A DNA stretch of 64,000 nt, taken from Paraburkholderia sp. BL10I2N1. GTDB lineage: Bacteria; Pseudomonadota; Gammaproteobacteria; Burkholderiales; Burkholderiaceae. Of the stretch, positions 32,476-51,729 are shown piece after piece (position 1 is the stretch's first letter; every line of letters starts with the position of its first letter). The notes beneath the pieces were generated by a model that had not been told where the DNA came from, did no database searches, and saw nothing but the letters and a program-made list of their open reading frames with translations. Location of the stretch: positions 1,302,001 through 1,366,000 of the forward strand of contig NZ_SNWA01000001.1 in the NCBI RefSeq assembly GCF_004361815.1, read 5' to 3'. The position numbers and the translations under genes are program-made.

Positions 32476-34950
32476 TCAGGTTCCGCTCGGAGCCCCGGCA
32501 ATGTACCTCTCCCACATTCCTTCGAACGCCTCTTCCAGGTTGCGCGCGAAGCGCGCGGCGTCGCATAGCGGCGATGCCAGAAGCTGCTCGCGCAAGCCCG
32601 CCCGCAGCACGCGCAGACGCTCACGGTCCGCAGAGAATGCCACGGCTTTGGCGATGTAATCATCATCGTCTGCGGCAATCCAGTCTGCCATACCCGCGGT
32701 CTGGGCAATCGTTTCGCCCACGTGCGACAGAAACCGGTCGCCGCGGCGCGTGAGCACCGGAACGCCCATCCACAGGCTTTCCACGCTCGTCGTTCCCCCC
32801 GGATACGGAAAGGGATCGAGCGCGAGATCGACGCGGTTGTATGTCTCGAGATGTGCAGTCCGCGTCGTGAAACCCTCCAGCAAGAGGCGCTCTGTGGCAA
32901 TGCCATGCGCCTCAAACCGTTCGGTCATTGCGTTGCACCCCGTCGGCCTCATGAACTGCTTGGCCTTCAAAAGCAGACGTGAGCCGGGCACCGCATGCAG
33001 TACACGCGACCAGAGCGCAACCGCTGCGTCGCCGATCTTGTCGGCGTTATTCAGACAGCCGAACGTCACGAATCCATTTTTCGACGCGGGCAGCGAGTCG
33101 ATCGCGATTTCCGGCTCGGGCGGTGCAAAGCACAGATAGCTGTCCGGCAGGCGCCAGGGCTTCTCCACGAAGTGCGACGCTTCGGACTCCGGCAACACAT
33201 GACGGTCCGCCAGAATATAGTCAATGGCCTCGAGCCCGGTGGTCGCGAAAAAGCCAAGCCAGGTCACCTGCACCGGCGCCGGCTTCCAGGCAAACACCGA
33301 CAGCCGGCTGTATGCGGTATGCCCTGACAGATCGACCAGGATGTCGATGCGATCGGAACGAATGAGATTCGCGCAAGCGTCGTCAGGCATACCACTCACG
33401 TCGTGCCACCGCTCGAAACGGGGCTTCAGGCGCACGGTCATTTGATCCACGAAGGCATGCGTCGAGTACGCGACCAGTTGCACGCGCTTCCGGTTCAGGT
33501 GTGCGATGACATTTTCGAGGAAAAAGGCAACAGGGTGGCACTTCAGATCGCCGGAGACAAACCCCACGCGCAGCGGCCGCGTGCCCTCCGTGCTCGCCGG
33601 CACGTGATGCCAGGGTCGCGCGTCTTCGGCCGCCCGCTCGCCAAACCGGGACGCATAACCACGCACCGTCTCGGGCGAAAAGCGCGCAACGGATGTCATG
33701 CTGAACATCAGCGAGTAATACATATTGACTGCCCGGAAACCCCGTTCGAGTGCTTCGAGATAGGCGTCAACTGCAGCCTCATGCTGCCCGAGTGCGTGAA
33801 GAATGTCTCCATGCGTGGCATGTATAGCCGCCGCCCCGTCCAGTAAAAGCGCCTTGCGACAACTCGCCAGCGCCTCTTCAAGCTTGCGCTGTTCGACGAG
33901 CAGAACCACCAGATTGTGGTGCATGACGGCATCGTCAGGGTTGAGCTCGAGCGCATGGCGGTAACTCAGCTCGGCCGCCTCATGCTTTTCGAGTTCGCGG
34001 TACGCATTGCCCAGATTGCTGTACGCCTCGCCCAGCCGGGGGTCGAGTTCGAGCGCGCGCTGGCACGACACGATTGCCGCGTCGTGTTTCTTCTGGCGCC
34101 TCAACGCGCCCCCCAGGTTACAGTGCGCGATCGCCAGCTTCGGATCCAGCGCAACGGCCGCCTCGAACTGCGTCACCGCCTCTTCCAGTTCGCCCGCATC
34201 GCGCAGCGCGCAACCCAGACTGTTGTGCGCGTTCGCGTCATCTCCACCCAGCCCGCGGCGCAGGCTCTCGATCGCCTCCGCCAGCGCGCCGCGCTCGCGC
34301 AGCGCCAGCCCCAGGCCGTGATGCGCCATGCGCAGCTGCGGCATCAGCGACACCGCCCGCCGGTAGCTTGCGATCGCCTCATCGAGCCGCCCCTGCGCCC
34401 GCTGCACATTGCCCAGGTTGTTGTGCGCCTGCGCATACTCCGGCCGCAGCGCCACCGCCTTGCCATAGCTGGCCGCCGCGGCCTCCAGCTCACCCAGGTC
34501 CTGCAGCGCATTGCCCAGGTTGTTGTAGGCCTCGGCGTACCCCGGGCGCAGCTCGATCGCCTGCGCGCAGCTGAGCATCGATGCCTGTGGCTGCCGCGCC
34601 TCGCGCAGCGCGTTACCCAGGTTGTTGTGCGCCTCCGGGTAATCCGGTTTTAACGACACCGCCCGCCGGTAATGCTCGATCGCCTGTGCCAGCTGCCCAC
34701 GCTCCAGCAGCATGTTGCCCAGATTGTTGTAATACGCCGGCTGCGGCTGCACCGCGATCGAGCGCTCCATCAGCCTGATGCCCACCTCGTGCTGCTGCAC
34801 CTGACAGGCCAGCAGCCCCAGGTAATGCAGCGCATCCGCCTGCTCCGGCTGCGCCTGCAGGATCTGCTCGTACAGCCTCTTCGCCTCGGCCAGTTCGCCG
34901 GACCGGTGATGCGCCAGCGCTGCTTTCAGGGAGTGAGAAATATCTTGCAT
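32476..34950 (-). CDS. TPR-GT41 (OGT/SPINDLY-like) glycosyltransferase 1
   Basis: This is a predicted cytosolic protein O-glycosyltransferase of 824 residues. The first 400 or so form about ten TPR repeats (YNNLGNMLLERGQLAQAIEH type); the GT41 catalytic half starts at about 455 (RPLRVGFVSGDLKCHPVAFF) and has DILVDLSGHT, KPAPVQVTWLGFFATTG, FGCLNNADK (Lys equivalent to the UDP-binding lysine of OGT) and [17 protein letters not shown] (about 718). Human OGT has GHTT where this has GGTT, so donor use may differ. The TPR half (to about residue 342) is almost identical in DNA to the next gene. It is the last gene of the minus-strand run, facing fliT; FliC is the likeliest substrate, by position. 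Confidence 0.88.
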   Translation of the reverse strand: MQDISHSLKAALAHHRSGELAEAKRLYEQILQAQPEQADALHYLGLLACQVQQHEVGIRLMERSIAVQPQPAYYNNLGNMLLERGQLAQAIEHYRRAVSLKPDYPEAHNNLGNALREARQPQASMLSCAQAIELRPGYAEAYNNLGNALQDLGELEAAAASYGKAVALRPEYAQAHNNLGNVQRAQGRLDEAIASYRRAVSLMPQLRMAHHGLGLALRERGALAEAIESLRRGLGGDDANAHNSLGCALRDAGELEEAVTQFEAAVALDPKLAIAHCNLGGALRRQKKHDAAIVSCQRALELDPRLGEAYSNLGNAYRELEKHEAAELSYRHALELNPDDAVMHHNLVVLLVEQRKLEEALASCRKALLLDGAAAIHATHGDILHALGQHEAAVDAYLEALERGFRAVNMYYSLMFSMTSVARFSPETVRGYASRFGERAAEDARPWHHVPASTEGTRPLRVGFVSGDLKCHPVAFFLENVIAHLNRKRVQLVAYSTHAFVDQMTVRLKPRFERWHDVSGMPDDACANLIRSDRIDILVDLSGHTAYSRLSVFAWKPAPVQVTWLGFFATTGLEAIDYILADRHVLPESEASHFVEKPWRLPDSYLCFAPPEPEIAIDSLPASKNGFVTFGCLNNADKIGDAAVALWSRVLHAVPGSRLLLKAKQFMRPTGCNAMTERFEAHGIATERLLLEGFTTRTAHLETYNRVDLALDPFPYPGGTTSVESLWMGVPVLTRRGDRFLSHVGETIAQTAGMADWIAADDDDYIAKAVAFSADRERLRVLRAGLREQLLASPLCDAARFARNLEEAFEGMWERYIAGAPSGT
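33925..34950. repeat. 1-kb direct repeat, copy A (TPR-coding)
   Basis: This stretch matches 36472-37497 at a constant offset of 2547 bases with about ten mismatches by eye (near 99% identity). The match ends sharply at the start codon and near codon 342. Internally it also has the 102-base TPR periodicity. Confidence 0.93.
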
Positions 34951-35010
34951 CGCTCTTTAGCGCGGCGTTCACGGACAATCACACGCCCGCTCGCCAACTG
35001 CTCCATTCAT

Positions 35011-37497
35011 TCACGCCGCGGTGGCTGCTTCGGCGACACCGGCGCAGTACCGGGCCCACATGCCCTGGAAGGCGTCGTCGAGATTGCGGGCGAAACGCTG
35101 TGCATCGCATAGCGGCGAGGCCAGCACCTGCGCGCGCAGGCCCGCCCGCAGCACGCGCAGACGCTCGCGGTCCGCAGAGAACGCCACGGCCCTGGCGATG
35201 TAGTCCTCCTCGTTTTCGGCGATCCAGTCTTCGAGACCCGCCGTGTGCAGCAGGCTCTCGCAGATGTGGGTGACGAACCGGTCGCCTTTCATGCACAGTA
35301 CCGGCGAGCCCATCCAGAGGGCTTCGGCAGTCGTGGTACCCCCCGGATAGGGAAACGGGCTCAGCGTGATGTCCACGCGATTGTAGGCATTGAGATACTC
35401 CGCACGCGGCGAGCCGGCTTCAAGGATCAGCCGCCCCGCGTCGATGCCATGTGACGCAAAGCGTGCCACCGTCGAGCGCCAGATGTCTTTCACATTGCTC
35501 CCCGGCGACTTCAGGAACAGCCGCGAGCCTGGCACCGCATGCAGCAGGCGGGACCAAACGGCAATGACGTTATCGTTCAGCTTGATATGCTTGCCAAAGC
35601 AGCCAAAGGTCACACCGTCATTCGTAAGCATCGGCAGCGGACCGATCTTCACCTCGGGCTCGGGCGGCGTGAAACACAGATAGCTGTCCGGCAGGCGCCA
35701 GGGCTTCTCCACGAAGTGCGATGCCTCCGACTCCGGCAACACGTGACGGTCCCCCAGAACATAGTCGATGGCCTTGCAGCCCGTGGTCGCAAAAAAACCG
35801 ATCCACGTCACCTGTACCGGCGCCGGCTTCCACGCGAACACGGGAATTCCGGTGAAGGCCGTATGTCCGGACAGATCGACCAGAATATCGATTCGATCGT
35901 CGTAGACCTTTTGCGCGGCCGCTTCAGTGCTCAGGTGATGCAGCGCGTGCCACCCGGAAAAATACGGCTTGAGGCGTGCAGTGATGTCGTCTTCGATCTC
36001 GCAGGTCGAGTAGGCGACCAGTTGTACGCGCGCGGAGTCGAGGTGCGCGCAGACAGATTCAAGAAAGATGCCGATCGGGTGCAATCTCAGGTCGCCGGAC
36101 ATGAAGCCCACCCGCAGCGGGCGCGCCTCCCCGCTCACGGGCGGCGAATGACGCCAGGGCCTCGCGTGTTCGGCCATCAGGTCGCCGAAACGGACCGCTT
36201 CTTCATGGAACGCTTCCACCGAGGTATTCGGTGAACCCGCGAGATTGAACAGCAGGCGGTTATAGGCCTCTACTCGATCTGGCGCAAGCTGGATCGCCTG
36301 GCGGTAAACAGCGGCCGATCTGACGAGGTCGCCTTGCGCGCGCAGAATGTCACCGAGATTGATGTACATCCGCGCAGTCGGCATGACGAGCGACATGGCC
36401 TTGTTGCTGCTTACCATCGCTTCTTCGAGCTTCTCCAGCTTGAGCAGCACCGTCGTCAGTTCGTCTTGCACGACGGCATCGTCAGGGTTGAGCTCGAGCG
36501 CATAGCGGTAACTCAGCTCGGCCGCCTCATGCTTTTCGAGTTCGTGGTACGCATTGCCCAGATTGCTGTACGCCTCGCCCAGCCGGGGGTCGAGTTCGAG
36601 CGCGCGCTGGCACGACACGATTGCCGCGTCGTGTTTTTTCTGGCGCCTCAACGCGCCCCCCAGGTTGCAGTGCGCGATCGCCAGCTTCGGATCCAGCGCA
36701 ACGGCCGCCTCGAACTGCGTCACCGCCTCTTCGAGTTCGCCCGCATCGCGCAGCGCGCAACCCAGACTGTTGTGCGCGTTCGCGTCATCTCCACCCAGCC
36801 CGCGGCGCAGGCTCTCGATCGCCTCCGCCAGCGCGCCGCGCTCGCGCAGCGCCAGCCCCAGGCCGTGATGCGCCATGCGCAGCTGCGGCATCAGCGACAC
36901 CGCCCGCCGGTAGCTTGCGATCGCCTCATCGAGCCGCCCCTGCGCCCGCTGCACATTGCCCAGGTTGTTGTGCGCCTGCGCATACTCCGGCCGCAACACC
37001 ACCGCCTTGCCATAGCTGGCCGCCGCGGCCTCCAGCTCACCCAGGTCCTGCAGCGCATTGCCCAGGTTGTTGTAGGCCTCGGCGTACCCCGGGCGCAGCT
37101 CGATCGCCTGCGCGCAGCTGAGCATCGATGCCTGTGGCTGCCGCGCCTCGCGCAGCGCGTTACCCAGGTTGTTGTGCGCCTCCGGGTAATCCGGTTTTAA
37201 CGACACCGCCCGCCGGTAATGCTCGATCGCCTGTGCCAGCTGCCCACGCTCCAGCAGCATGTTGCCCAGATTGTTGTAATACGCCGGCTGCGGCTGCACC
37301 GCGATCGAGCGCTCCATCAGCCTGATGCCCACCTCGTGCTGCTGCACCTGACAGGCCAGCAGCCCCAGGTAATGCAGCGCATCCGCCTGCTCCGGCTGCA
37401 CCTGCAGGATCTGCTCGTACAGCCTCTTCGCCTCGGCCAGTTCGCCGGACCGGTGATGCGCCAGCGCTGCTTTCAGGGAGTGGGAAATATCTTGCAT
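35011..37497 (-). CDS. TPR-GT41 (OGT/SPINDLY-like) glycosyltransferase 2
   Basis: This 828-residue paralogue of the preceding gene has TPRs 1-400, then a GT41 domain from about 455 (RPLRVGFMSGDLRLHPIGIF) with DILVDLSGHTAFTG, FGCFGKHIK and GGTTTAEALWMGSPVLC (about 719). Its N-terminal 342 codons are nearly identical to gene 1 but the segment after them and most of the catalytic half are diverged, with only short conserved patches (DSYLCF; AFSADRERLRVLRAGLR). This implies the same TPR docking surface on two different catalytic heads. Gap to gene 1 is 60 bases; the C-methyltransferase gene lies 52 bases upstream. Confidence 0.88.
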   Translation of the reverse strand: MQDISHSLKAALAHHRSGELAEAKRLYEQILQVQPEQADALHYLGLLACQVQQHEVGIRLMERSIAVQPQPAYYNNLGNMLLERGQLAQAIEHYRRAVSLKPDYPEAHNNLGNALREARQPQASMLSCAQAIELRPGYAEAYNNLGNALQDLGELEAAAASYGKAVVLRPEYAQAHNNLGNVQRAQGRLDEAIASYRRAVSLMPQLRMAHHGLGLALRERGALAEAIESLRRGLGGDDANAHNSLGCALRDAGELEEAVTQFEAAVALDPKLAIAHCNLGGALRRQKKHDAAIVSCQRALELDPRLGEAYSNLGNAYHELEKHEAAELSYRYALELNPDDAVVQDELTTVLLKLEKLEEAMVSSNKAMSLVMPTARMYINLGDILRAQGDLVRSAAVYRQAIQLAPDRVEAYNRLLFNLAGSPNTSVEAFHEEAVRFGDLMAEHARPWRHSPPVSGEARPLRVGFMSGDLRLHPIGIFLESVCAHLDSARVQLVAYSTCEIEDDITARLKPYFSGWHALHHLSTEAAAQKVYDDRIDILVDLSGHTAFTGIPVFAWKPAPVQVTWIGFFATTGCKAIDYVLGDRHVLPESEASHFVEKPWRLPDSYLCFTPPEPEVKIGPLPMLTNDGVTFGCFGKHIKLNDNVIAVWSRLLHAVPGSRLFLKSPGSNVKDIWRSTVARFASHGIDAGRLILEAGSPRAEYLNAYNRVDITLSPFPYPGGTTTAEALWMGSPVLCMKGDRFVTHICESLLHTAGLEDWIAENEEDYIARAVAFSADRERLRVLRAGLRAQVLASPLCDAQRFARNLDDAFQGMWARYCAGVAEAATAA
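36472..37497. repeat. 1-kb direct repeat, copy B (TPR-coding)
   Basis: Partner of 33925-34950 in the same orientation. Recombination between the copies would delete 2547 bases and fuse the TPR half of gene 2 to the catalytic half of gene 1, leaving one intact gene. Confidence 0.93.
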
Positions 37498-37549
37498 GGC
37501 TCTGTCGGGGCGGCGCGCGGAAACGCCTCCCGCGGCACCGTCCGGTTGG

Positions 37550-38755
37550 TCAATAGGGGTGGGAGGCGGTGCCGAAGCTTACGAGTTCACCGTCGTGCTC
37601 GATCATCACGTCCAGCACCGTGATTCCTTCACGTGACATCTCGGCAATAATGTCACGCGCCCGCCACTGCGTGGGTATCACAATGACATCGACCGCAGAG
37701 TCCTTCAGCACGTCGCGGTACTGGATCTGCTGCCCGGTTCCCGGCACGTAGGTGCCAGCCTTGTGTGGATCAGAGTCGACAACCAGCGGAAAGCGCAGGG
37801 CGTCGGCGCCGAATTGATGGATGAAGGCTGCGGCCTTCCCCGTCCCTCCCCAGATTGCGACGCGTTTGCCCGATGCCGAAATCGCCGACAGTTGCTGCGC
37901 GATGGTCTTGCGGCTTGTCACCGTGCGCGCTGCGAAACGGGCCGCGGCTTCGGCACGTACGCGCGACTGCGTAGAGACGCCGAGCCTGACAAGCGCGTAG
38001 ACAACTTCGCCGTCGTAGCCGTGTTCGAGCGTGACGACCTCGCCCGCACGCGACATCAACGCACGGAACGACTCGGTGGTGAAATGCGACACATGCTCGT
38101 AGAAAAAATCAGCGAGCCGGCTGGTTTCGAAGACACGGTCAATACACGGCACTTCAGCGAACAGCCAGCATTCCTTGCCCTGCATGGCCGCGCCCCACGC
38201 AAGCGCTTCCAGCAGCTTCGCCGGTTCGGTGAGGTGTTCAAGCACGTGACGAATCACGACGGCGTCGGGCGTGAAAGTAGCCATGTCGACGAGCGGCTCG
38301 AACAGCCGCGCATGAAACTCGACACCGTTGCCCGTTTCGGGGCTCGCGTTCGGATCGAAGCCGACAAAACGGCCCGCCTCGCGCGCCTGCGCGAGCCCGC
38401 GCACGAAATGCCCTTCTCCGCAACCGATCTCGACGACTAGCGGTGCATCAGCCAGCCGGTTCAACAGCAGATCGCGCGTCTCCGCAAGATGGCCCTTCCA
38501 GATCGAGCCGTTGTTGAACATCCGGTTCGGATTGCTTTCGTAGGGAATCGCTTCGTAACGGAATTTGTGATTCCAGACATGCGAACAGGCCGGACATTGG
38601 ACGAAGTCCTGCGCATGGCGCGGCAACGCGCGTGCGCCTTCGGCCGACGTCGGCCAGGCGAGCGTCGCCAGGGTTTGCTCGCCGGCCGGAAAAAAGCGGG
38701 CTGCGACAAAGTGAGCGCAAACCGGGCAGCTCGCTGCCACCATATCGAGACTCAT
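37550..38755 (-). CDS. Sugar C-methyltransferase-like protein
   Basis: This is a 401-residue protein with the three-part layout of nucleotide-sugar C-methyltransferases (NovU/TylC3 type). The N-terminal zinc-binding region has CPVC (about 10) and CPAC (about 53). The SAM-binding Rossmann domain has [15 protein letters not shown] (about 105-120) and HVLEHL. The C-terminal Methyltransf_14-type domain has [18 protein letters not shown] and [17 protein letters not shown]. Family members transfer a methyl group from SAM to a carbon of an NDP-4-keto sugar. Its start overlaps the stop of the UDP-xylose-synthase-like gene by 4 bases, so the two are probably made together. Confidence 0.82.
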
Positions 38756-39693
38756 GATGTCACCACCTTCCTGAAATATGCGATGGTCTCCTTCAGACCG
38801 TCTTCGAGTTCAATGCCGGGCTGCCAGTCGAGATGCCGGCGCGCCTTCGAGATGTCGGGCCGACGTTGAACAGGATCGTCCGGGGGAAGCGGACGGTACA
38901 CGAGACGGCTCTTCGAGCCGGTCAGACGCAGCACCGTTTCCGCCAGTTCCCGGATCGTGATTTCCGACGGATTGCCGACATTCACCGGGCCGACTTCGTC
39001 GTCCTGGTCCATCATCCGCAGCAGCCCTTCGACCAGATCATCGACGTAGCAGAACGAGCGGGTCTGGCTGCCATCGCCGTATAGCGTGATCGGTTCGCCC
39101 TTCAATGCCTGCATGATGAAGTTCGACACGACGCGGCCATCGTCAGGGCGCATGCGCGGTCCATAGGTGTTGAAGATCCGTACGATCCGGATGTCGACGC
39201 CGTGCTGCCGGTGATAGTCGAAAAATAGCGTTTCGGCGCAACGCTTCCCTTCGTCATAGCAGGCGCGCGGTCCGTTCGGATTCACATTGCCCCAGTAACT
39301 TTCCTGCTGCGGATGCTGCTGCGCATCGCCATAGACTTCGCTTGTCGATGCCTGCAGGATCCTGGCATTGCAGCGTTTGGCTAGCCCCAGCATGTTGATC
39401 GCGCCGAGGACCGCCGTCTTCACGGTGGAAACAGGATCGCTCTGATAGTGCACGGGACTCGCCGGACAGGCCATGTTGAACACGCGGTCCGCCTCGACGT
39501 AGAGGGGCAGCCACACGTCATGGCGAATCAGCTCGAAGTTCACCTCGCCGATCAGATGCTGGATGTTCTGCTTGCTGCCGGTATGAAAATTGTCGACGCA
39601 CATCACGTCGTGGCCGGCGCGCACCAGCCGCTCGCACAGGTGCGAGCCAAGAAAGCCGGCGCCGCCGGTAATCAGGATCGAGTCCGCGTTCAT
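38752..39693 (-). CDS. UDP-glucuronate decarboxylase (UDP-xylose synthase)-like
   Basis: This is a short-chain dehydrogenase-fold enzyme of 313 residues: NAD-binding [40 protein letters not shown], and catalytic YDEGKR (Tyr/Lys near 144-148) within [20 protein letters not shown]. This pattern is specific for UDP-xylose synthases, which oxidise and decarboxylate UDP-GlcA via UDP-4-keto-xylose. The ATG at 39693 overlaps the stop of GT41 gene 3 (ATGA) and its own stop overlaps the C-methyltransferase start. The triple coupling GT41-UXS-methyltransferase suggests one pathway. The frame to 39780 is not used. Confidence 0.88.
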
Positions 39694-41570
39694 TGCGTCG
39701 ATTCCACACTGGCGACGTGTTGGGCCCACATCCCGTGAAGCGCGCTCTCGAGATTCCTCGCAAACCGCGGTGCATCGCACAGCGGCGACGCGAGAACCTG
39801 CTCGCGCAGACCCGCGCGCAGGGTTTTCAGGCGTTCGCGATCACCGGCAAAGGCTACTGCCCGGGCGATATAGTCTTCGTCGTCGTTGGCAATCCAGCCG
39901 CCGAGACCAGCCGAGTGCAACAGGCTTTCGCAGATGTGCGACAGGAAGCGGTCGCCGCGGCGACATAGCACCGGCACGCCCATCCACAAGCCTTCGGCCG
40001 TCGTGGTACCGCCCGCATACGGAAACGGGCTTAGCGTGATGTCGACGCGATTGAACGCCGCCAGATATTCGGCGCGGGGCGAATGGCCTTCCAGGATCAA
40101 TCGCGAAGCGGCGATTCCATGGGCGGCGAAACGACGGACGACTGCCTCGCGGACGTGCGCGACGTCGAGGTGTTCAGCCTTGAGGAACAGGCGCGATCCC
40201 GATACCGCCAGCAGCAGGCGGGACCATACGGCGATGACGGGGTCGGTCACCTTCGTCAGCTTGCCGAAGCTTCCGAACGTCACGTGGCCGTTGGCGAGCA
40301 TCGGCAGCGGCCCGACCTTGACGTCATCGCGCGGCGGCGTGAAGCACAGGTAGCTGTCAGGCAGGCGCCACGGCTTCTCGACGAAGTGCGCTTCTTCCGC
40401 AGCAGGCAACACGTGACGGTCGCCGAGCACATAGTCGATTGTGCGCAAACCCGTACTGGCAAAATAGCCAGGCCAGCTCACCTGTACCGGCGCGGGCTTG
40501 CGCGCGAAAAGTGGCAAACGGTTGTACGTGGTGTGGCCCGACGCATCGATGAGCACGTCGACGCGGTCGTCGCGAATCTTCCGCGCGGCCGCTTCGTCGC
40601 TCATGCCGGCAATGCTCGTCCATGCGGCAAAGCGCGGCATGATGCGGTACGTCAGTTCGTCTTCGAGCACGCGCGTCGGGTAGGCGAAGAGTTCGACGCG
40701 CGCCGGATCAAGATTCGCTACGACGCTTTCCAGAAAGTACCCGACCGGGTGCTTCTTGAGATCGCCCGAGACGACGCCGACGCGCAACGGCCGTGCCGTT
40801 CGCGGTCCGATATCCACCAGCCAGTCCGACGAGGGTTTCACCTGCGCGCCAGCGCTTTGCGCAAAGCGCTGCGCCTCGTCCAGGTACTCTGCTACCGACA
40901 GGTCGTGTCTATAGTTCAGAGCGAACAGCAGATTGCTGCGCGGCGCGGCGAAATCCGGTCGCAGCGAAATGGCTTGACGGTATGCCTCGATAGCGGCATC
41001 GAGTTCGTCGAGTTCCATCAGCGTGTTCGCGAGGTTGTTGTATGCCTGCCCGTGCTCCGGCTGCAGGCTGAGGACGTCGCAAAACGCCTGCGCCGCCGCT
41101 TCATACTCCTTGAGGGCACGCAGCGCATTGCCAAGATTGTTATGCGCGTCGACATAGTCCGGCTGCAGCGCTAACGCCTGGCGGAAACACTCGGCGGCGG
41201 CTGCAGGCCGATTGTGTGTCTGCATGACGTTGCCAAGGTTGTAGTAGTAGATCGCCTGCGGGTTGCTGGAGATCGCCGCCATGATCAGCTCAGAGGCGGT
41301 GTCGTATTGCCCGAATTGATGCGCGATAAGTCCCAGCAGGTGCTGTGCGTCCGCATGGTCCGGGTGGGTCGAGAGAATTTGCCGATAGAGCGTCTCGGCC
41401 TCGTCGAGGCGATCGGCCTGATGATGCTCGAGCGCGGTCTGGAGTGCGGCTTCCAGCGGCACCGTCAGCGGTGCGGGCGTTATGGCGGAGATCGCCGGCG
41501 ACGGCATACGCAGCCAGGAGGCACCGCCGCCTTCGAGCGGTGACGGGTCGTGATGACCGAGGTCGTTCAT
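39690..41570 (-). CDS. TPR-GT41 glycosyltransferase 3 (short)
   Basis: This 626-residue member is shorter than the others because it has only about six TPRs (about 30-240). The GT41 domain starts at about 262 ([20 protein letters not shown]) with [35 protein letters not shown] and [17 protein letters not shown] (about 520). The N-terminal 30 residues are unrelated to the paralogues. Start and stop overlap neighbouring genes by 4 bases on both sides (GT41 gene 4 and the UXS-like gene). The catalytic half is closest by eye to gene 2. Confidence 0.87.
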
Positions 41571-43729: not shown

Positions 43730-43755
43730 TGCTCCTGTCCATCGCCATCGCTATC

Positions 43756-43835: not shown

Positions 43836-44522
43836 CTAGTCTGTGTACTTGTGCAGATAGCGCTGATACGCGTCGCGCCATGCGGGTGTACCGAATGCCC
43901 CGCCGCTTTCGTGAATAACGCTGATGGGCCACGTCCCCATCCGTAAGCCTTTCAGTTCGGCCTGCCGGCAGAAATCCATGTCGTAAAAGTGAAACGCGAA
44001 CTGCTCGTCGAAACCCAGACCGACTTCGTTCAGACGCTCGCTATCGGCCGCCAGCAGCAGCCCATCGAGAAGCTTGCACTCCAGCCCTGCGGGCCCGTAC
44101 ATGGACACGTCGCTACACGGGAAGCCCTTACCGTGGCCGACCACGCCGCTGAAGAAGCGCGGATCGTCGCGCGTGAAGCCCGGATCGACAAAGATCCAGG
44201 CCGGTTGACGCGGTACCCGGCGCGTGTTGCCCGCCAGACCGACCACGTCGAACTTGTCGACCGCCTCACGGATCCTGTCCATCCAGAAGAAGTCGGACAG
44301 GTAAATATCGTCATGGATGAAGACCAGGATCGCTGGATTGTCTTTCGCCTGCTGGATCGCCTTGTTGTAGATCGTCGAGAGGCCTGCCTTGTTGTTGTCG
44401 AAGAGGAGAAGCTGCGGCGGATTCCGGTAGCGACTGACCGTCAGCGAACGTCCCAATGCTGTCTTCTGCACGAAGTCGTCGTACGAGACACGGGTGCCGC
44501 AAACCAGTCGAATAGGCTTCAT
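43836..44522 (-). CDS. Small GT2-like glycosyltransferase (StrF type)
   Basis: This 228-residue protein resembles the Glyco_tranf_2_5/StrF-like glycosyltransferase family. It starts MKPIRLVCGTRVSYDDFVQK, has VFIHDDIYL (candidate DxD-type metal site, about 68-76), the acceptor-region segment FHFYDMDFCRQAELKGLRMG, and a C-terminal HESGGAFGTPAWRDAYQRYL. The ATG at 44522 has no clear ribosome site, but upstream frame residues look non-coding. It is separated by 290 gene-free bases from the WbqC-like gene upstream. The sugar and acceptor are unknown. Confidence 0.75.
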   Translation of the reverse strand: MKPIRLVCGTRVSYDDFVQKTALGRSLTVSRYRNPPQLLLFDNNKAGLSTIYNKAIQQAKDNPAILVFIHDDIYLSDFFWMDRIREAVDKFDVVGLAGNTRRVPRQPAWIFVDPGFTRDDPRFFSGVVGHGKGFPCSDVSMYGPAGLECKLLDGLLLAADSERLNEVGLGFDEQFAFHFYDMDFCRQAELKGLRMGTWPISVIHESGGAFGTPAWRDAYQRYLHKYTD

Positions 44523-44812
44523 AAAAGGAAAATCCAGGAAAAAACGAACGATCCAGTCTCGTCGGGTCGAGTACGTAGAGGCGGAGCGGGAGGCACTGCA
44601 CGACCACAAGGCCGCCGCCCACTGTCAACATCTCCACTCGCCGATAACGACGCCTGATGCTGGCGTTGTGACCGCGATGATTGAATCTTGCGGGTTATTG
44701 TGGCCGCGACCGCAGGATCCTGATCAATGGATCAAGCCGCGTAAATGGTCGCTATTCCGCGTACTGTCGTTGCGCCCAGCCGGCGGCGACAGCACGCTCG
44801 CGGAAAGTTGAT

Positions 44813-45532
44813 CTATGGCGCCTGCAACGTCACGTGACTGCGGAGCGCGTGGGCGACCTTGTCGGGTGCATTCCACAACAGCACGTCAATGATCGACAGA
44901 TGGGGCTCGTACCGGAACGGCGCGGGGTCGTAGGTGAATTCGTCGAACCCGGCAAAGCGGAGCGATACGCCGATGCGCGCGAATTTGACAGGGTCGAAAA
45001 GATCGCGACCGCCGAGCGGATTCACGTATTCCGTCGCGCCCAGCGCGCGACAGATGAACGGCGCCCAGTCGCCCGGCCCCATCTCCTCGGGAAACGCCAG
45101 GTTCAGTTCAGAGCCGATACGCCACGAAAAGGGCAGGCCGAGATATTCGCACACCGCCTGCAGCGCGTTGACGTTCAGCGCACACAGCGAATCGCCTGTG
45201 GTGCGCTCGAACGCGTCACGCACCAGCTGACTCACCTCCGCATAGAACGGTGCATGCTTTCGAAATGTGGAGAGCTTGCCAAGCAGGCTCGTTTTCGTAT
45301 CGATGAGGTTGAGTACGCGCGCTTCATGCGTTTTGATCGATGTCGAGGAGTTCGCCAGCGGCACTGTCGCGTACTGCCAGCCTTCCTTCGGATGAAGAAT
45401 GCGATTCCGGTTCATCCACGTCTTCGGCGTGTACTGCGTCACGTCGAAGACGATCCATTCATCGACGGCAGCAATCAGCGCGAAATGCCCGAGATACGGG
45501 AAAAAATACGGCTGCATGATGCCGAGTTTCAC
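44813..45532 (-). CDS. WbqC-like family protein
   Basis: This 239-residue protein starts at a GTG (45532) that overlaps the preceding stop as GTGA: MKLGIMQPYFFPYLGHFALI, the typical WbqC-family opening. Other conserved parts are VIVFDVTQYTPKTWMNRNRI-like and the central Cys/Ala-rich FICRALGATEYVNPLGGRDL. WbqC-family genes occur in O-antigen and flagellar glycan loci beside aminotransferases; their reaction is not established to my knowledge, though modification of an amino sugar is plausible. It is the last gene of the coupled aminotransferase block. Confidence 0.82.
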   Translation of the reverse strand: MKLGIMQPYFFPYLGHFALIAAVDEWIVFDVTQYTPKTWMNRNRILHPKEGWQYATVPLANSSTSIKTHEARVLNLIDTKTSLLGKLSTFRKHAPFYAEVSQLVRDAFERTTGDSLCALNVNALQAVCEYLGLPFSWRIGSELNLAFPEEMGPGDWAPFICRALGATEYVNPLGGRDLFDPVKFARIGVSLRFAGFDEFTYDPAPFRYEPHLSIIDVLLWNAPDKVAHALRSHVTLQAP

Positions 45533-46689
45533 GAACGCTCTCCACCCGCATGGGTTGCTCGCGAGGAGGCCTCGCCGATGATCTCGCACACCGTGTCGAC
45601 CATCGGCACGCTCACGTGCGCACCCACGGGTAGCATCAGCCACGACGCGCCGATGTGCGCGGCGGCCGTCAGGCCGCTTATGTCAGCGGACGCTCCTTGC
45701 GCCGCAATCACCGGACGCGCCTCGACATTGTCGGCTGCCAGCCGTTCGATCAGCGCATCGCGCGTCAATCCGAAAACCTGCTCGTCGATCTCGCACATCA
45801 ACGCCTGGTGATTCGATACATCGACGCTCGCGGGCTCGACCACACGTAGTCCACGCACCGCGTCCAGACGCGTGCGATAGGCGTCGAAAAGGGTCCGGTT
45901 GTGCGCCCGGTTAGCGGCGTAGTCGTCAAGGCTCAACAGCCCGATCGCGGCCTGCGCCTCGGACATTCGCCCGTTCGATGTCTTCACGACGGCCACCGGG
46001 CGGCCCGCACCGTAGCTACTGCGAATGTTGCGCAGGCGGGCGGCAAGCTCGTCATCGTCCGTCGTTACGCAGGCACCGCCACCCGCATTCAGCACGTCCC
46101 TTTCGCTGAAGGCCAGCACTTCGACCTGGCCAAACGTACCGACTCGCCGGCCCCCGATTTCGCAGCCGAACGCATGCGCGGAATCAAAGAGCACGGGCAG
46201 GCCGCGCGAGTGCGCGAAGTCCTCCAGCGCGCCGGCCGCGCACGCGCCACCCCAGAGATTCGCGGCAAACACAGCACCGACAGGCGTCGTGAGCCGCTCT
46301 GCGAGACTCGCGACCGACATCTGGCCGGTCATGGAGTCGACGTCGCAGACAACGGCTTCGACCCCGCACCACGCCATCGCGTGCAATGCCGCCGCGTTGC
46401 TCACAGCGGGCACCAGCGCGCTGCCGCGCACGCCTAGCGCCTCGCTTGCCATCATCAGGCCAATGGCTTCATTGGTCACGCAGACCGCGTGCCGGACGCC
46501 GACAAAATCCTGCAGACGCTCTTCGAAAGCACGCGCGAGCGGCCCCTGGTTAGTGTAGTAGCGGCGCTCGAAAATATCCCGCATGGCGGCCTCGTAGCGG
46601 TCCCACGAAGGCATGTTGTACTGGCCAATCGCCACGACCTGCGCGAACGCTGGCGCGCGCAGATTCATTGCGGCATGCCGCCCCGTCAT
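45529..46689 (-). CDS. DegT/DnrJ-fold protein lacking the PLP lysine
   Basis: This 386-residue protein has the overall DegT/DnrJ/EryC1 aminotransferase fold: YYTNQGPLARAFEERLQDFV, AANLWGGACAAG, LFDSAHAFGCEIGG. But the segment that should read SFHxxK is AFSERDVLNAGGGA, with Asp198 where the Schiff-base lysine belongs (Lys203 and Lys188 in the two neighbours). The phosphate-binding SGT is replaced by TNEA. It therefore cannot be a normal PLP transaminase. It may partner the adjacent homologue, be a dehydratase-like derivative, or be regulatory. It overlaps both neighbours by 4 bases, so it is made in step with them. It has a GAGGTGA ribosome site. Confidence 0.85.
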   Translation of the reverse strand: MTGRHAAMNLRAPAFAQVVAIGQYNMPSWDRYEAAMRDIFERRYYTNQGPLARAFEERLQDFVGVRHAVCVTNEAIGLMMASEALGVRGSALVPAVSNAAALHAMAWCGVEAVVCDVDSMTGQMSVASLAERLTTPVGAVFAANLWGGACAAGALEDFAHSRGLPVLFDSAHAFGCEIGGRRVGTFGQVEVLAFSERDVLNAGGGACVTTDDDELAARLRNIRSSYGAGRPVAVVKTSNGRMSEAQAAIGLLSLDDYAANRAHNRTLFDAYRTRLDAVRGLRVVEPASVDVSNHQALMCEIDEQVFGLTRDALIERLAADNVEARPVIAAQGASADISGLTAAAHIGASWLMLPVGAHVSVPMVDTVCEIIGEASSRATHAGGERS

Positions 46690-47879
46690 ACATTCACCTC
46701 TGCGGTTTCGACGCGTGCGCGGATTTCGTCTGCGTGCGCGCGTATGAACGACAGCAACGCGACGACGGTATCGATATCGTCAATCGTAACGAAGTCGCCG
46801 CATGGCATCAGCGCGAAACGGCCAGCGAGGCGGTCCGTTTGTGGCAGATCGGCGGGGATATACGGATACGCCATCGGTTTGCTGTGCAACGGCGGCGCGT
46901 AGTATGCCCGCGCCAGCACACGCTCGGCGTTCAGGATGTCGATCGTCAGCGACCGGGAAAGCGGCCAGTTGTCCAGTTGTTCGACCACGATGTTCTTGTA
47001 ACTGGTGCGATGTGTCTCGTCGAAGTCGATCAGACGGATACCGGGCACAGCGGGTAACAGCTTGCGGTAGTGGTAATAACGCTCGCGGTTGCGCAACACC
47101 TGGGCGTCGAGTTCGTCGAGATTGGCAAGCGCCATGGCCGCATGCGTGTCGCCGAGCCGGGCATCGAGTGCGCCCCGCTGCAGCGTGCCGCCATCGCGCA
47201 GACTAGCCAGCGTGCTGGCGAGCGCCCGATCGTTGGTGGTTACGTAGCCGCCCTCGAAGCCGTTGAGCAGCTTGCTTGCGTGCAGTGAGAAGCACTCCGC
47301 GTAGCCGAAACCACCCACCCTGCCCGAATCGCACGCCTCATAGACGGATTCGACAGAATCGAACAGGAGCGGAATCCCTTGCTGCGTCGCGAGGTCGACG
47401 AGACCCTCCACGTCGCAGCAGTTGACTATGGGGTGCACACCGAGCAGCAGCGCAGTGTCGTCGCCGAGGCAGGCACTCGCAGTCGCGGCGCTGATCGCAA
47501 GCGTCGAGGAATCAACTTCGCAAAAGCGCGGCAGCATGCCGGTCCACGCAACGACGTCGGCCATGCGCCGATAGGTTAGCGACGGCATCACCACTTCACG
47601 CCGGCCGGGACGGGCAAGCGCGATCATCGTCACCGCAAGCGCCCAGAAGCCGCTGCAAAAGCTCACGCAGTGAGCAACCTCGTGAAACTGCGCGAGGCGC
47701 TCTTCCAGCAACTTCGTGACCGCGCCCGGCGGCGTGCCTGGCGTGACGAACGCCGCCTGCGCGTAGTCGAGAAAACGTCCGAACTCCGGCTGAACGAGAT
47801 TCGATGTCGATTTTGGCGCCGTAAAGAGCGGTGGCGCGCCGAACAGCGCGAGATCCGCCGCGCCTTGCCGGCCGTTCAT
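46686..47879 (-). CDS. DegT/DnrJ-family aminotransferase (lysine present)
   Basis: This is a 397-residue PLP-dependent sugar aminotransferase homologue. FCSGFWALAVTM takes the place of the SGTxAL phosphate loop (Thr to Phe), LLFDSVES holds the PLP-nitrogen Asp, and SLHASKLLNGFEGG contains Lys203, the expected Schiff-base residue. The ATG at 47879 overlaps the methyltransferase stop (ATGA) and its stop overlaps the lysine-less homologue. Family members transfer an amino group to an NDP-keto-sugar; the position and sugar are unknown. Divergent loops suggest a substrate unlike that of the VioA-like enzyme. Confidence 0.85.
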   Translation of the reverse strand: MNGRQGAADLALFGAPPLFTAPKSTSNLVQPEFGRFLDYAQAAFVTPGTPPGAVTKLLEERLAQFHEVAHCVSFCSGFWALAVTMIALARPGRREVVMPSLTYRRMADVVAWTGMLPRFCEVDSSTLAISAATASACLGDDTALLLGVHPIVNCCDVEGLVDLATQQGIPLLFDSVESVYEACDSGRVGGFGYAECFSLHASKLLNGFEGGYVTTNDRALASTLASLRDGGTLQRGALDARLGDTHAAMALANLDELDAQVLRNRERYYHYRKLLPAVPGIRLIDFDETHRTSYKNIVVEQLDNWPLSRSLTIDILNAERVLARAYYAPPLHSKPMAYPYIPADLPQTDRLAGRFALMPCGDFVTIDDIDTVVALLSFIRAHADEIRARVETAEVNV

Positions 47880-48625
47880 TGGGCGGGCCCTCCGGCACCG
47901 CCTGTCGCGCGGCGCCGCAAGACGACGTCGTAGCGATAGTGCACTGAGAAGAACGACGCCGGCATCGACGAGAATTCGGTGTCCCAGCCCGCGTCGGCGG
48001 CCATCGCGGCAAATTCGTCCTGGGTGCGCCAAATGCCGATCTGCGCGCGCGGGTCGGTGAGTTCACCGGGCAACGGCGTGCGCGGCGCGTAAAACGCCGC
48101 CGCACGGTCGCGATCCGGCAGGTTGCCGATGAAGATCGAATTGACTTTGGCAAAGCGCCGATGCAGCAGGTGCAGCGCAGATTCGGCGTCCTGCTGGGAA
48201 AAATACGCGAAGCTGCCGTAGCACAGCACCTTCGTGAACCGTTCTGGCGCCGGCTCGTTGAGCAGATATTCGGCTGCGCCGTTGGCGATAAAGGTGAACT
48301 TCGGCGCGTCGGCAAAATGCGCGTTAGCGACCTCGATCAGGTATTCGGACAGGTCGACGCCGACCAGTGCTGCGCACGCATCGAACAGCCGCTGGGACAG
48401 CGCGCCGTTGCCGCACGCGAGATCGAGCACGACGTCATCCGGCTGCAACGCGAGATGCCGCCGGATCGCGTGAACGATCATGTCGATATGCTCGTCCGGC
48501 ACGGCTTTGCCGCGCACCGTGCGCTTGACCTGAGCCCAGAAGTCGTCGGGAGGACAGGTCCGTGCGTGTTCGTCGTAGTCGACGGTGGGGTAGTCGCGCA
48601 ATGGGGTTTGCGTAGCGTTTGACAT
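47876..48625 (-). CDS. Class I SAM-dependent methyltransferase
   Basis: This 249-residue methyltransferase has motif I in VVLDLACGNGALSQRLF (about 66-82), an acidic motif II in LVGVDLSEYLIEVA, and KVLCYGSFAYF as motif IV/post-I region. No membrane segments. In flagellin-glycan loci such genes add O- or N-methyl groups to sugars. Here it lies 39 bases after the VioA-like gene and overlaps the next aminotransferase by 4 bases, which suggests methylation of the amino sugar or its acyl group. The acceptor is inferred only from context. Confidence 0.85.
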   Translation of the reverse strand: MSNATQTPLRDYPTVDYDEHARTCPPDDFWAQVKRTVRGKAVPDEHIDMIVHAIRRHLALQPDDVVLDLACGNGALSQRLFDACAALVGVDLSEYLIEVANAHFADAPKFTFIANGAAEYLLNEPAPERFTKVLCYGSFAYFSQQDAESALHLLHRRFAKVNSIFIGNLPDRDRAAAFYAPRTPLPGELTDPRAQIGIWRTQDEFAAMAADAGWDTEFSSMPASFFSVHYRYDVVLRRRATGGAGGPAQ

Positions 48626-48664
48626 GAGGGTCCCAGGTAGCCGGTCTGGCGATTGGCGTGCGGC

Positions 48665-49807
48665 TTAGCTTGCGCGGCGCTTGCGCCATGCGCACGAAAG
48701 AATCGTCTCGATGACGCGCTCCTGGTCTGCGTCATCCAGCGCCGGGAAAATCGGAAGGCAGAGCACCTGACGCGAGATCGCCGTCGCAACCGGCAGGTTG
48801 TGCGGACCTGCAGACGGCAGGCCGCGGTACATTGGAAACTCGCTGATCAGCGGGTAAAAATAACGGCGCGCGGCGATATGTTTTTCACGCAGCTCGTTAT
48901 ACAGATCGTCCCGGCTGACAGGGAACTCCGGCGTGACGAGAATCGGAAAGTACGCAAAGTTCCTTGTGCAATGCACCGGCACGTCGTGCATCGCGATCCC
49001 GTGCAGATTGCGAAGCGCATCCCGATAACGCGCATCGATGCGGGCGCGCTGCGCGTTGACCTCATCCATGTGCTTGAGCTGCAGCAGTCCGAAGGCGGCC
49101 TGAACTTCGTTCATCTTGCCGTTGATACCGGGCGCCACGACCGTCGTCTCATCGACAAAGCCGAAGTTCTTCAGATTGTCGATACGGCGCTTGGTCTTCG
49201 CGTCGCGACAGACGATCGCGCCGCCTTCAAAGGTGTTGAACACCTTGGTGCCGTGAAAGCTCAGCACCGACATGTCGCCGTAGTGAAGCACCGAGCGATC
49301 GTTGATACGCACGCCAAAGGCATGGGCCGCGTCGTAGATCACACGCAGCCCGTAGGTATCGGCGATCGACTCGATCCGCTCGACGTCGCACGGATTGGCA
49401 TACACATGGACCGGCAGGAGCGCGGTGGTTTGCGGCGTGATTGCCGCTTCGATTTTCTCGGGGTCCAGATTCAGACTGACTGGGTCAATGTCGGCAAATA
49501 CAGGCTTGATACCGTTCCAGTGCAGGGCATGGGTCGTGGCGACAAAGCTGAACGGCGTCGTGATGACTTCGCCGGTGATCTTCAATGCCTGCAACGCGGT
49601 GATCAGCGCCAGCGTCCCGTTCGAGAACAGCGAGAGATGCTCGACACCGAGGTAGTCGCACAACTGCTCTTCGAGTTGCTGATGGAACACGCCGTTATTG
49701 GTTACCCACTTGCGATCCCAGATTTCTTCGAGGTACGGCCGGAACTCGTCCAGCGGAGGTAGGAACGGTTGCGTGACGGGAACGAAAGTCGGTTTCGGAT
49801 CGCTCAT
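48665..49807 (-). CDS. VioA-like sugar aminotransferase
   Basis: This 380-residue DegT-family aminotransferase resembles VioA/QdtB-type enzymes. It opens FVPVTQPFLPPLDEFRPYLE, has FSNGTLALITALQAL (phosphate loop), TTPFSFVATTHAL, VIYDAAHAFGV and SFHGTKVFNTFEGG with catalytic Lys188. VioA converts dTDP-4-keto-6-deoxyglucose to dTDP-4-amino-4,6-dideoxyglucose (viosamine), a sugar known on Pseudomonas syringae flagellin. The needed RmlA/RmlB enzymes are not in this window and would have to lie elsewhere. It is the first gene of the five-gene block ending with the WbqC-like gene. Confidence 0.85.
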   Translation of the reverse strand: MSDPKPTFVPVTQPFLPPLDEFRPYLEEIWDRKWVTNNGVFHQQLEEQLCDYLGVEHLSLFSNGTLALITALQALKITGEVITTPFSFVATTHALHWNGIKPVFADIDPVSLNLDPEKIEAAITPQTTALLPVHVYANPCDVERIESIADTYGLRVIYDAAHAFGVRINDRSVLHYGDMSVLSFHGTKVFNTFEGGAIVCRDAKTKRRIDNLKNFGFVDETTVVAPGINGKMNEVQAAFGLLQLKHMDEVNAQRARIDARYRDALRNLHGIAMHDVPVHCTRNFAYFPILVTPEFPVSRDDLYNELREKHIAARRYFYPLISEFPMYRGLPSAGPHNLPVATAISRQVLCLPIFPALDDADQERVIETILSCAWRKRRAS

Positions 49808-50016
49808 GGAGTGCGCCTGGAATCGGTCGGGTCGAATGAACGTCCCTGTTTTGCGCCCCTGTATGCGCCACGGGGTCTAAGAGCGGGCTCTTGAATGACG
49901 ATGACGGCGCAGGTTGGCTTGATCGAAGTGTGTCACCAGTCCCCGCGCCCCGATCGGTCAAACAGGCGGGCGAATGCCCGCCAATTCCGCGAAACGCCTG
50001 TCATCGGGCACGACGC

Positions 50017-51729
50017 TCAGGCCGAGAAGGCAGGCATGTGTCCTTTCGAGAAAAGGAAGAACGGTTCGCGCACATTGCAGCCGACGACGTCCGGATCGAT
50101 CTCGCCCAGCACCGTCTTGTGCGGATACAGATCGCCGCTCAGGCCGGCGCCACGGAAGTAGTCGACGATGTCGGCACCGAAAAGCCGCACGTGATCGTCC
50201 TGACCAAAATAGCGCGTGGCGAACGCGCCAGAAACGGGCCGGTTCAACTCGAACGTATGCTTGAGCACGGGCGAATACGGCGTCTGCGCGACCAGATGCC
50301 CGGTCGGCGTGAGGCAACGGCTGAATTCGGCAATCGCCTGCGCCGGGTTGTCGACGTGCTCCAGCACATGATTGCAGATGATCAGATCGAAGTAGCCGCC
50401 AGGGAAATCGAGCGACTCGACGTTAATCTTGCGATGCGCCGGCGAACGGGGAAACAGGTCGCCTGCGATGTACTCCATCGGCTCCAGGGCACGGATGCGC
50501 GGCTCCAGCCGTGCTTCCGGCGCGATGTGCAGGATACGTTTGCTCGACGCGTTCTCGAGCAGACCCGAGTATGCGAAATACAGCCAGAGATGGCGGTCGC
50601 GATCGTTGCAATAGCAGTTCGGGCAATGATGCTTTTCAAGCGTCGAGCCGACGGATTCGACCTGCTGCATGAAGTCCCGATCGCTCCCGGCAGCCGGGTG
50701 CGGCAGCCATTCCGTGACGGGCTTGTCGCACACCACGCAGAACTTCTGTGCGACGGGTGCCGCCTGCGCCACGGGCTTTCGACGTGCCGCCACGCGCGCC
50801 GCCACGGCCGAGCGCGCACGCTCCAGGTCGGCCTGGAAGCGCTGGGAGGCGAACAGTTCGTGCGTCGGACGGGCAATCAGTTCCTGCAGATTGCCGAGCA
50901 GGTGCGCGAGTTCCGGCAGCTTGCCGGCCCAGTTCGAATAGAGTTGCGTCAAAAGCTGCTGCGCCGAGGCGAGCGCTTCGCCTTCGAGATACCCGGCCCC
51001 CGCCTCGCCGCGCACCATCAGTTCCCATTCATACAGGCCCGCGCTGAAGTTGGGGCTGAGCGCGTTCGAGCTTTGGCCATCGTGCCGCCGGAACGCGCTC
51101 AGGTACCCGCCTACTGCGACGAGCGGTCCGTGCGCGGACAGGTTCAGATAGATCGCCACGTCGCCGAGAAAGTCCAGCTTCCATGAGCGATAGTCGAACA
51201 CGCCCGCCGCATCGATCAGCCTTTCACGGTTGAACATGATGTTGCTCGGCTCGCCGATGAAATTGTTCAGCTTGCCGACCATTTCCCGTACGAGAAGCGC
51301 ACGGTCGATCAACGCGCGCTCGCCGTCCTTGAGCAAGGGCGGGGGCACCTGGCTCACGGCGTCGTTTTCGTCGATGATCACGCGCCCGTGGAACGCCATC
51401 GCCGACTCGGGATGCGCGCGCAACGCCTCGACGAGCGCTTCGACCGAAGTGGGCATCAGGACGTCATCGTCGTACAGCCACTTGATGTACTTGCCGCTTG
51501 CCCGCTGCAGCAGCGCCTGCGAATTACGCGTGCCTTTCTGGAAGCCATGATGGAAGTACTGGATACGCGGATCGGCGAAGCTTCTGACGGTCTGTTCAAG
51601 CGCCGCATCCGGCGTGTCGTCGCCGACCAGAATCTCGATATCGTCAAACGTCTGGCCTTGCGCACTGGTCAGTGCCCTTCCCAGAAACCGGGCCTTGTAC
51701 GCCGGAATCAGAATGCTGACGGTAGCCAT
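50017..51729 (-). CDS. GT2 glycosyltransferase fused to zinc-finger and methyltransferase domains
   Basis: This 570-residue fusion has an N-terminal GT-A/GT2 domain (1-230; VSILIPAYKARFLGRALTSA, GDDTPD, and KWLYDDDVLMP as the metal-binding DxD), a helical and Ala/Arg-rich linker (about 240-330), a four-cysteine zinc-ribbon-like segment (CVVCDKP and CPNCYCNDRDR, about 335-380), and a C-terminal SAM methyltransferase-type domain (ILHIAPEARLEPRI, FDLIICNHVLEHV, CLTPTGHLVAQTPYS). It may add a sugar and then methylate it, capping the glycan. AGGAAAGG precedes the ATG. It lies 209 bases upstream of the VioA-like gene and may be the first gene of the island. Confidence 0.82.
   Translation of the reverse strand: MATVSILIPAYKARFLGRALTSAQGQTFDDIEILVGDDTPDAALEQTVRSFADPRIQYFHHGFQKGTRNSQALLQRASGKYIKWLYDDDVLMPTSVEALVEALRAHPESAMAFHGRVIIDENDAVSQVPPPLLKDGERALIDRALLVREMVGKLNNFIGEPSNIMFNRERLIDAAGVFDYRSWKLDFLGDVAIYLNLSAHGPLVAVGGYLSAFRRHDGQSSNALSPNFSAGLYEWELMVRGEAGAGYLEGEALASAQQLLTQLYSNWAGKLPELAHLLGNLQELIARPTHELFASQRFQADLERARSAVAARVAARRKPVAQAAPVAQKFCVVCDKPVTEWLPHPAAGSDRDFMQQVESVGSTLEKHHCPNCYCNDRDRHLWLYFAYSGLLENASSKRILHIAPEARLEPRIRALEPMEYIAGDLFPRSPAHRKINVESLDFPGGYFDLIICNHVLEHVDNPAQAIAEFSRCLTPTGHLVAQTPYSPVLKHTFELNRPVSGAFATRYFGQDDHVRLFGADIVDYFRGAGLSGDLYPHKTVLGEIDPDVVGCNVREPFFLFSKGHMPAFSA

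Follow-up and report, generated by a model that had tools for sequence, protein, structure and literature searches.

Glycosylation of flagellin by transferases that carry tetratricopeptide repeats (TPRs) is known; the locus described here is a recurrent module in which such enzymes are coupled to a short flagellin. FlmG of Caulobacter crescentus joins N-terminal TPRs to a C-terminal GT-B domain and is described as acting on flagellin in the cytoplasm (PMC7591256). Enterobacterial islands linked to fliC carry GT41 transferases and methyltransferases, with one to three transferases per island, and nearly all of their GT41 proteins bear methyltransferase domains (PMC4875605). The flagellins of Burkholderia pseudomallei and B. 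thailandensis are reported to receive glycans at a single site, with masses of 291 Da (Table 1 of that paper gives 582 Da) and 300 or 342 Da (PMC3958885), and SPINDLY is described as an O-fucosyltransferase (PMC9715652). The present locus lies in Paraburkholderia sp. BL10I2N1, within a stretch of 64 kb (contig NZ_SNWA01000001.1, positions 1,302,001 to 1,366,000) that is called the window below. Here, 13 glycan genes on the minus strand (32476-51729) converge on the plus-strand block fliC-fliD-fliT. Judged from its gene content and setting, the block very probably encodes a cytoplasmic flagellin O-glycosylation system with FliC as its target. The flagellin genes and the four TPR-GT41 genes, the latter recognized by their Pfam domains, are as follows.

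29539-30357, plus strand: fliC, encoding a flagellin of 272 amino acids (aa) with Flagellin_N at residues 4-140, Flagellin_C at 186-271, about 45 residues between them and no D2/D3 insert
30528-31955, plus strand: fliD, encoding the filament cap (PF07195, 2e-49; PF02465)
31989-32294, plus strand: fliT-like chaperone gene (PF05400 at 28.7 bits, just below the cut-off of 29.5; syntenic relatives)
32476-34950, minus strand: GT41a, TPR plus GT41, 824 aa
35011-37497, minus strand: GT41b, TPR plus GT41, 828 aa
39690-41570, minus strand: GT41c, TPR plus GT41, 626 aa
41567-43729, minus strand: GT41d, TPR plus GT41, 720 aa

Flagellin length and the layout of GT41 genes

The genus was sampled with 58 genomes, the window's included, and fliD was found in all of them. 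Of the 82 fliD-centred stretches (the window and 81 that were fetched), 61 have a complete, measured fliC; the remaining 21 are left out of the flagellin table, 20 for want of a complete fliC and one for want of a recovered fliD. A locus is termed type A when a short flagellin (272-276 aa) has its nearest GT41 gene on the opposite strand, in a convergent layout. Fourteen of the 61 stretches are type A. Another 35 combine a long flagellin (381-504 aa) with a same-strand GT41, 11 have a long flagellin (381-556 aa) and no GT41 within 4 kb, and one has a short flagellin without a GT41; no other combination is present. All 46 long-flagellin loci therefore have a same-strand GT41 or none within 4 kb. 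Alignment shows that the type A flagellins are devoid of the outer-domain insert between their N- and C-terminal helical regions.

This association extends to the family. Among 150 family genomes, 24 (again counting the window's) hold a GT41c relative of at least 58% identity, and G038 holds one at 55%. Flagellin genes were searched for in 23 of these 25 genomes, the window's own and G040 having been measured already, and in 21 of the 23 the GT41c relative lies at most 14 kb from an opposite-strand flagellin gene. All 20 flagellins measured span 272-276 aa; 19 belong to type A layouts, and the other is that of G081. Lengths are lacking for G136, G085 and G038, and the value for G075 is that of the flagellin beside its GT41 genes, other flagellins being present. 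Taken together, type A layouts carry a short flagellin in 33 of 33 measured cases (14 in the genus, 19 in the family). Beyond this genus, g12, g14 and g25 of the family sample likewise have loci with several GT41 genes beside flagellin. For contrast, 32 genomes were chosen by hand from the 125 in the family sample that lack such a GT41; their best-scoring flagellin frame has at least 376 codons in 30 of the 32, these lengths being stop-to-stop frames and hence upper bounds. A type A layout is accompanied by a short flagellin without exception, yet this rule stems from few events, and its converse fails.

The four transferases and their recurring groups

The four window proteins match the Pfam GT41 model at 132-152 bits (cut-off 25), and all carry N-terminal TPRs. 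A search of the 9.2-Mb genome at E <= 0.001 returns eight half-domain GT41 matches, which correspond to these four genes, and no further GT41 gene. Sequences from the 14 type A loci were aligned in 48 rows, including a third, distant-class copy from G187 and the two halves of a split copy from G150. The columns of the catalytic His and of the donor-phosphate Lys are each kept in 47 of the 48 rows, and three additional columns in 46 each. All five are intact in the window's four copies, and the row that fails at a catalytic column is one half of the G150 split copy. That copy adjoins fliT and is spread over two frames (L023, 5285-7710), through assembly error or decay.

A quick GT41 tree, built without bootstrap and with its long-flagellin side represented by 13 rows from 9 of 36 same-strand-GT41 loci, unites the 47 type A rows (46 genes, one of them split) at support 89 and separates them from 12 long-flagellin rows; G187_3 and G158_2 pair with each other at a distance. 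Two groups recur across the relatives: group c has 10 rows at support 99, and group d has 9 at support 97. By best match, GT41c is present in 13 of the 14 type A loci, and in 10 it falls within the supported c group. The tree does not bear out all four genes, a to d, as positional orthologues: it backs groups c and d and not a and b.

A synteny search finds the convergent layout beside fliC in 14 of the 58 genus genomes, the window's among them. Eight of these loci hold four GT41 copies, two hold three (G180, G170) and four hold two (G167, G187, G189, G153), where the distant-class copy of G187 is excluded and the two halves of the G150 copy count as one. An expansion private to this genome is thus rejected. 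The sequence-only reading had considered four GT41 paralogues in one flagellar locus to be unusual; the number does exceed the one to three described per enterobacterial island (PMC4875605), but it recurs in eight of 14 type A loci, and multiple copies reach other genera.

The closest solved chain to GT41d is Arabidopsis SPINDLY (E 3e-127). Among the matches listed from the 58 genus genomes, relatives of GT41d with at least 47% identity all adjoin fliD, except one in G186. A scan of contigs for GT41d gave 27 mostly distant loci, and none of the five that were scanned contains fliC, fliD or another gene of the locus. The two best matches are TPR-GT41 proteins of Gallionella (L042, L044), 47-48% identical to GT41d, and the stretches examined there showed no flagellin gene.

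Variations on the single-domain arrangement are also seen. G189 (L034, 5206-9360) has two type A GT41 catalytic domains in one open frame of 1384 codons, a possible two-headed transferase that would fit two activities on one substrate. G065 (L131, 1254-6278) has an open frame of 1674 codons with two GT41 domains of the other class, about 17 kb upstream of fliD. The fragmented, 70%-complete G038 assembly of the family sample shows seven strong GT41c matches over several contigs, possibly a larger GT41 set.

The pentose genes and their link to GT41d

Two genes between GT41b and GT41c point to a pentose-derived sugar.

38752-39693, minus strand: UXS, UDP-glucuronate decarboxylase (UDP-xylose synthase), matching human UXS1 (2b69, E 2e-122)
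37550-38755, minus strand: C-methyltransferase of the TcaB9/TylC3 type, with methyltransferase and Methyltransf_14 domains

The first belongs to the short-chain dehydrogenase/reductases (SDRs) and is closest to UXS, at E 2e-122 versus 5e-41 for the best non-UXS chain; a 4,6-dehydratase or an epimerase is rejected, the E value of the UXS match being lower by some 80 orders of magnitude. The active-site residues T-S-E and YxxxK are visible in the alignment to UXS1. The C-methyltransferase is only distantly related to its best PDB match (E 3e-15), so a pentose is a putative substrate for it. Its orthologues (at least 78% identity; 78-86% outside the window) are found in 9 of the 58 genus genomes, always in this locus beside fliD, and other long matches in these genomes reach at most 31%.

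The type A loci with a group d GT41 are exactly the 9 of 14 that hold UXS and the C-methyltransferase, UXS being scored within the fetched stretches. This co-occurrence suggests that GT41d probably attaches a C-methylated pentose; as a specific claim, use of the UXS/C-methyltransferase product by GT41d is put forward tentatively, as a real possibility. No report of a C-methylated pentose on flagellin was found in searches of open-licence papers.

Amino-sugar and accessory genes

The outer part of the glycan block consists of seven genes.

43836-44609, minus strand: GT2-like gene, StrF-type glycosyltransferase (PF13712 at 25.3 bits, below the cut-off of 27; a weak family call)
44813-45532, minus strand: WbqC-like protein (domain match)
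45529-46689, minus strand: DegT1, a DegT fold without the lysine that binds pyridoxal phosphate (PLP), having D at that position
46686-47879, minus strand: DegT2, DegT family, PLP lysine kept (alignment)
47876-48625, minus strand: S-adenosylmethionine (SAM) methyltransferase (PF13649)
48665-49807, minus strand: DegT3, DesI-type sugar 4-aminotransferase, PLP lysine kept (2po3, E 1e-71)
50017-51729, minus strand: fusion of GT2 and methyltransferase (PF00535, PF08241)

The GT2-like product has no PDB match at E <= 0.1, and the start of its gene is uncertain, since most relatives align only from residue ~28-30. A PDB search with WbqC gave repeat-protein and other weak matches and no convincing solved relative. 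Homologues of WbqC (24-63% outside the window) are present in 14 of the 58 genomes; 12 of these have one no more than ~20 kb from fliD, and G155 and G166 do not. At the lysine position of DegT1, the two clear orthologues found have Q (G193) and N (G175). Lacking the catalytic lysine, DegT1 is not an ordinary aminotransferase; it may act as a non-catalytic partner or have a new activity built on the DegT fold. DegT3 scores 300 bits against the NCBIfam DesI model, below the equivalog cut-off of 650, so a DesI-type product is a putative one. Its likely substrate can come from RmlB of the same genome, encoded elsewhere (C1:487811; 505 bits against a cut-off of 365).

Of 19 relatives compared, two share the window's complete set WbqC-DegT1-DegT2-SAM methyltransferase-DegT3: G193, which is type A, and G175, which has a long flagellin. 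In G175, the set comes after fliC-fliD-fliT-GT41, all on one strand. The accessory genes thus accompany either flagellin type and, for the most part, keep close to flagellin.

Organization and surroundings of the block

The 13 minus-strand glycan genes that the sequence-only reading had seen converging on the flagellin block are all present. Its identification of four TPR-GT41 enzymes and of UXS is borne out, while its StrF call proves weak and one of its three DegT homologues, DegT1, does not pass for an ordinary aminotransferase. The "many" 4-base overlaps that it described amount to 6 of the 12 junctions, given the starts chosen for the count (UXS 39693, WbqC 45532, DegT2 47879). It had missed the coupling to short flagellin, the match of GT41d with UXS and the C-methyltransferase, and the absence of the lysine in a DegT protein.

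Two features flank the block and its target.

29424-29451, plus strand: sigma-28-like promoter 5' of fliC, suggestive only, with the top score in the window
52115-52190, minus strand: tRNA-Arg (CCG), directly upstream of the glycan block

Sigma-28-like sites number two in the whole window, which is not above ten shuffles (1-5). An integration island at the tRNA-Arg gene was considered and is not supported: no duplicate of the final 26 bases of the tRNA turned up in the window at <=6 mismatches, and the third-position G+C content of the 13 genes (0.73-0.80) resembles that of fliC (0.75). A phrog match at 52438-53391 is an ordinary cytochrome c. The part of the window from 2 to 19 kb holds further flagellar export and chemotaxis genes (FHIPEP/flhA, flhB, cheB, a methyl-accepting chemotaxis protein, cheA, motB and motA), and a gene for an IS110-family transposase sits beside flhA (803-2137, plus strand).

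Domain searches detected no Wzx, Wzy, Wzz, flippase, polymerase or lipid-initiating transferase among the 13 genes. A nonulosonic-acid synthase is likewise absent among the 13 genes, to which this search was limited, leaving aside the rest of the genome; the Leg/Pse models match the SDR and DegT proteins only far below cut-off.

A model for flagellin modification

The preferred reading, O-glycosylation of FliC in the cytoplasm, builds on the observed gene content, the kept catalytic columns, the linkage to fliC, the co-occurrence with short flagellin and the recurrence of groups c and d; the acceptor, the donors, the order of events and the role of the glycan are proposed on that basis. In this model, four soluble TPR-GT41 enzymes would bind FliC in the cytoplasm before its export. 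Their N-terminal TPR parts would recognize flagellin, and their C-terminal GT41 domains would transfer sugars from nucleotide donors to Ser/Thr residues of the exposed D1 surface or to a sugar already attached. UXS and the C-methyltransferase would turn UDP-glucuronate into a C-methylated pentose donor, whose likeliest user would be GT41d. DegT3, supplied by the genome's RmlB, may produce a 4-amino-4,6-dideoxyhexose, which DegT1/DegT2, the methyltransferases, WbqC and the GT2 enzymes may decorate or extend. At least some of the four GT41 enzymes would have different donors, the C-methylated pentose being one and an aminodideoxyhexose derived from DegT3 another. The claim made earlier from sequence, that FliC is O-glycosylated and that its glycan combines a pentose-derived with an amino-sugar part, finds good support in this context: the linkage to fliD, the C-methyltransferase, WbqC and the absence of Wzx/Wzy among the 13 genes.

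Since the flagellin has no outer-domain insert, the glycan would form the outer surface of the filament. Whether it also stands in for the missing outer flagellin domains is doubtful, although conceivable. A more sweeping proposal is unlikely: insert-less fliC, fliD, fliT and two to four specialized TPR-GT41 genes would be inherited as a unit, a swappable module alternating with one of long flagellin and same-strand GT41, with sugar replacing the outer domains and each paralogue having its own donor. These donors would include a C-methylated pentose derived from the 4-keto intermediate of UXS.

Evidence to the contrary

Several observations weigh against this interpretation, beginning with the small number of evolutionary events. 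A quick rpoB tree of 57 genomes (G179, which has no rpoB match, is absent) requires three changes of the type A state, at least two of them forced by well-supported branches, and one of its rows, the type A genome G180, has a long branch and an odd composition. Independent pairs number two on supported branches and three on the best tree (sign test, p 0.5); all point in the same direction and are too few for significance. Genera g12 and g14 each seem to include both flagellin classes, which would add switches not placed on the tree. The match of GT41d with UXS similarly spans 14 related loci with just two supported independent pairs, and a plain best match would label two G170 copies as d too, at 47-49% identity.

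The coupling also has its exceptions. A short flagellin without an adjacent GT41 is found at the second fliD locus of G170 (L128), where the 272-aa fliC lies on the opposite strand and the whole stretch shows no GT41. Short frames appear in the contrast set, in G024 (290 codons) and in G034 (296 and 334, plus 726). The GT41c relative of G081 is ~2.7 Mb from its short flagellin, and G038 has its GT41c relative and its flagellin on separate contigs. An extra GT41 in G186, 52% identical to GT41d, is located on contig C121 (103378-104793), away from the fliD contig. Opposite-strand GT41 genes farther off are seen near long flagellins in G190 (12 kb) and G158 (7 kb).

Finally, the GT41 copies at positions a and b do not sort into clean orthologue groups, which suggests that those places were filled more than once or that sequence was exchanged. 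The motif scan of the window shows no convincing sigma-28 site upstream of the glycan genes. The amino-sugar genes are accessory, the full set being found in 1 of the 13 other type A loci (G193) as far as the fetched stretches reach.

Alternative explanations

The explanation that fares best beside a stepwise compound glycan is that the four GT41 enzymes are site specialists, which place the same or a similar single sugar on different Ser/Thr residues of FliC. All four window copies keep their catalytic columns, groups c and d recur, and two to four copies suffice in different relatives, all of which would suit such a division of labour. Site-specific systems of paralogous flagellin transferases are moreover named in the title of Unay 2024, as cited in PMC12645811. 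The exact tracking of UXS and the C-methyltransferase by group d speaks against it, as it suggests donor specificity for GT41d, and the site-specialist account is considered plausible but, on balance, not the probable one.

It is rather improbable that only the core (the four GT41 genes, UXS and the C-methyltransferase) acts on flagellin and that the outer genes, from WbqC to the GT2-methyltransferase fusion, are a separate cassette with another target. The scarcity of the full five-gene set among the other type A loci would be expected of such a cassette, but its presence after GT41 in the long-flagellin locus of G175 indicates that the set tracks flagellin in two layouts.

A third alternative holds that the genes make a lipopolysaccharide O-antigen or a capsule and lie beside fliC by chance, leaving flagellin untouched. 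DegT, WbqC, GT2 and methyltransferase genes are common in O-antigen loci, whereas TPR-GT41 is a protein-modifying family. Although an O-antigen cluster of B. pseudomallei is reported to affect flagellar glycosylation as well (PMC3958885), the surface-polysaccharide explanation is very improbable given the lack of Wzx, Wzy, Wzz and an initiating transferase among the 13 genes, the confinement of the C-methyltransferase orthologues to this locus and the proximity of most WbqC homologues to fliD.

Significance

Read as a flagellin glycosylation system, the locus offers four naturally occurring paralogues, probably enzymes of protein O-glycosylation, that would work on one small, exportable acceptor, with relatives that hold two or three. 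The donor and site specificity of GT41 enzymes, a question open also for human OGT, becomes testable by subtraction. Should the link to a domain-less flagellin be causal, sugars can take the place of protein domains at the surface of the filament. From the pairing of UXS with the C-methyltransferase, an unusual branched pentose is predicted.

Comparison with known systems

The window enzymes share the combination of TPRs and GT41 with OGT and SPINDLY, whose donors are UDP-GlcNAc or GDP-fucose and whose acceptors are many nucleocytoplasmic proteins. They resemble FlmG in pairing N-terminal TPRs with a C-terminal transferase domain; the linkage to flagellin is a feature of the window genes and their relatives. 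Caulobacter flagellins are similarly short, and Caulobacter vibrioides, included as a control, also gives a match in the GT41 search. FlmG is a single transferase with a pseudaminic acid donor, whereas the window has four paralogues together with UXS, C-methyltransferase and DegT genes.

The flagellin systems of Burkholderia, which belongs to the same family as the window's organism, have one TPR transferase beside a long flagellin and in this resemble the long-flagellin loci of this study, and the flagellin of B. cenocepacia reportedly carries a Qui4N-type sugar, Qui4N(3-hydroxybutanoyl). Type A loci differ from them in their short flagellin and in their two to four opposite-strand transferases. 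No description of the four-GT41, short-flagellin arrangement was found in searches of open-licence papers. The enterobacterial fliC-linked islands, in whose available description no UXS/C-methyltransferase pair is mentioned (PMC4875605), differ from the window in turn, which has both this pair and four transferases.

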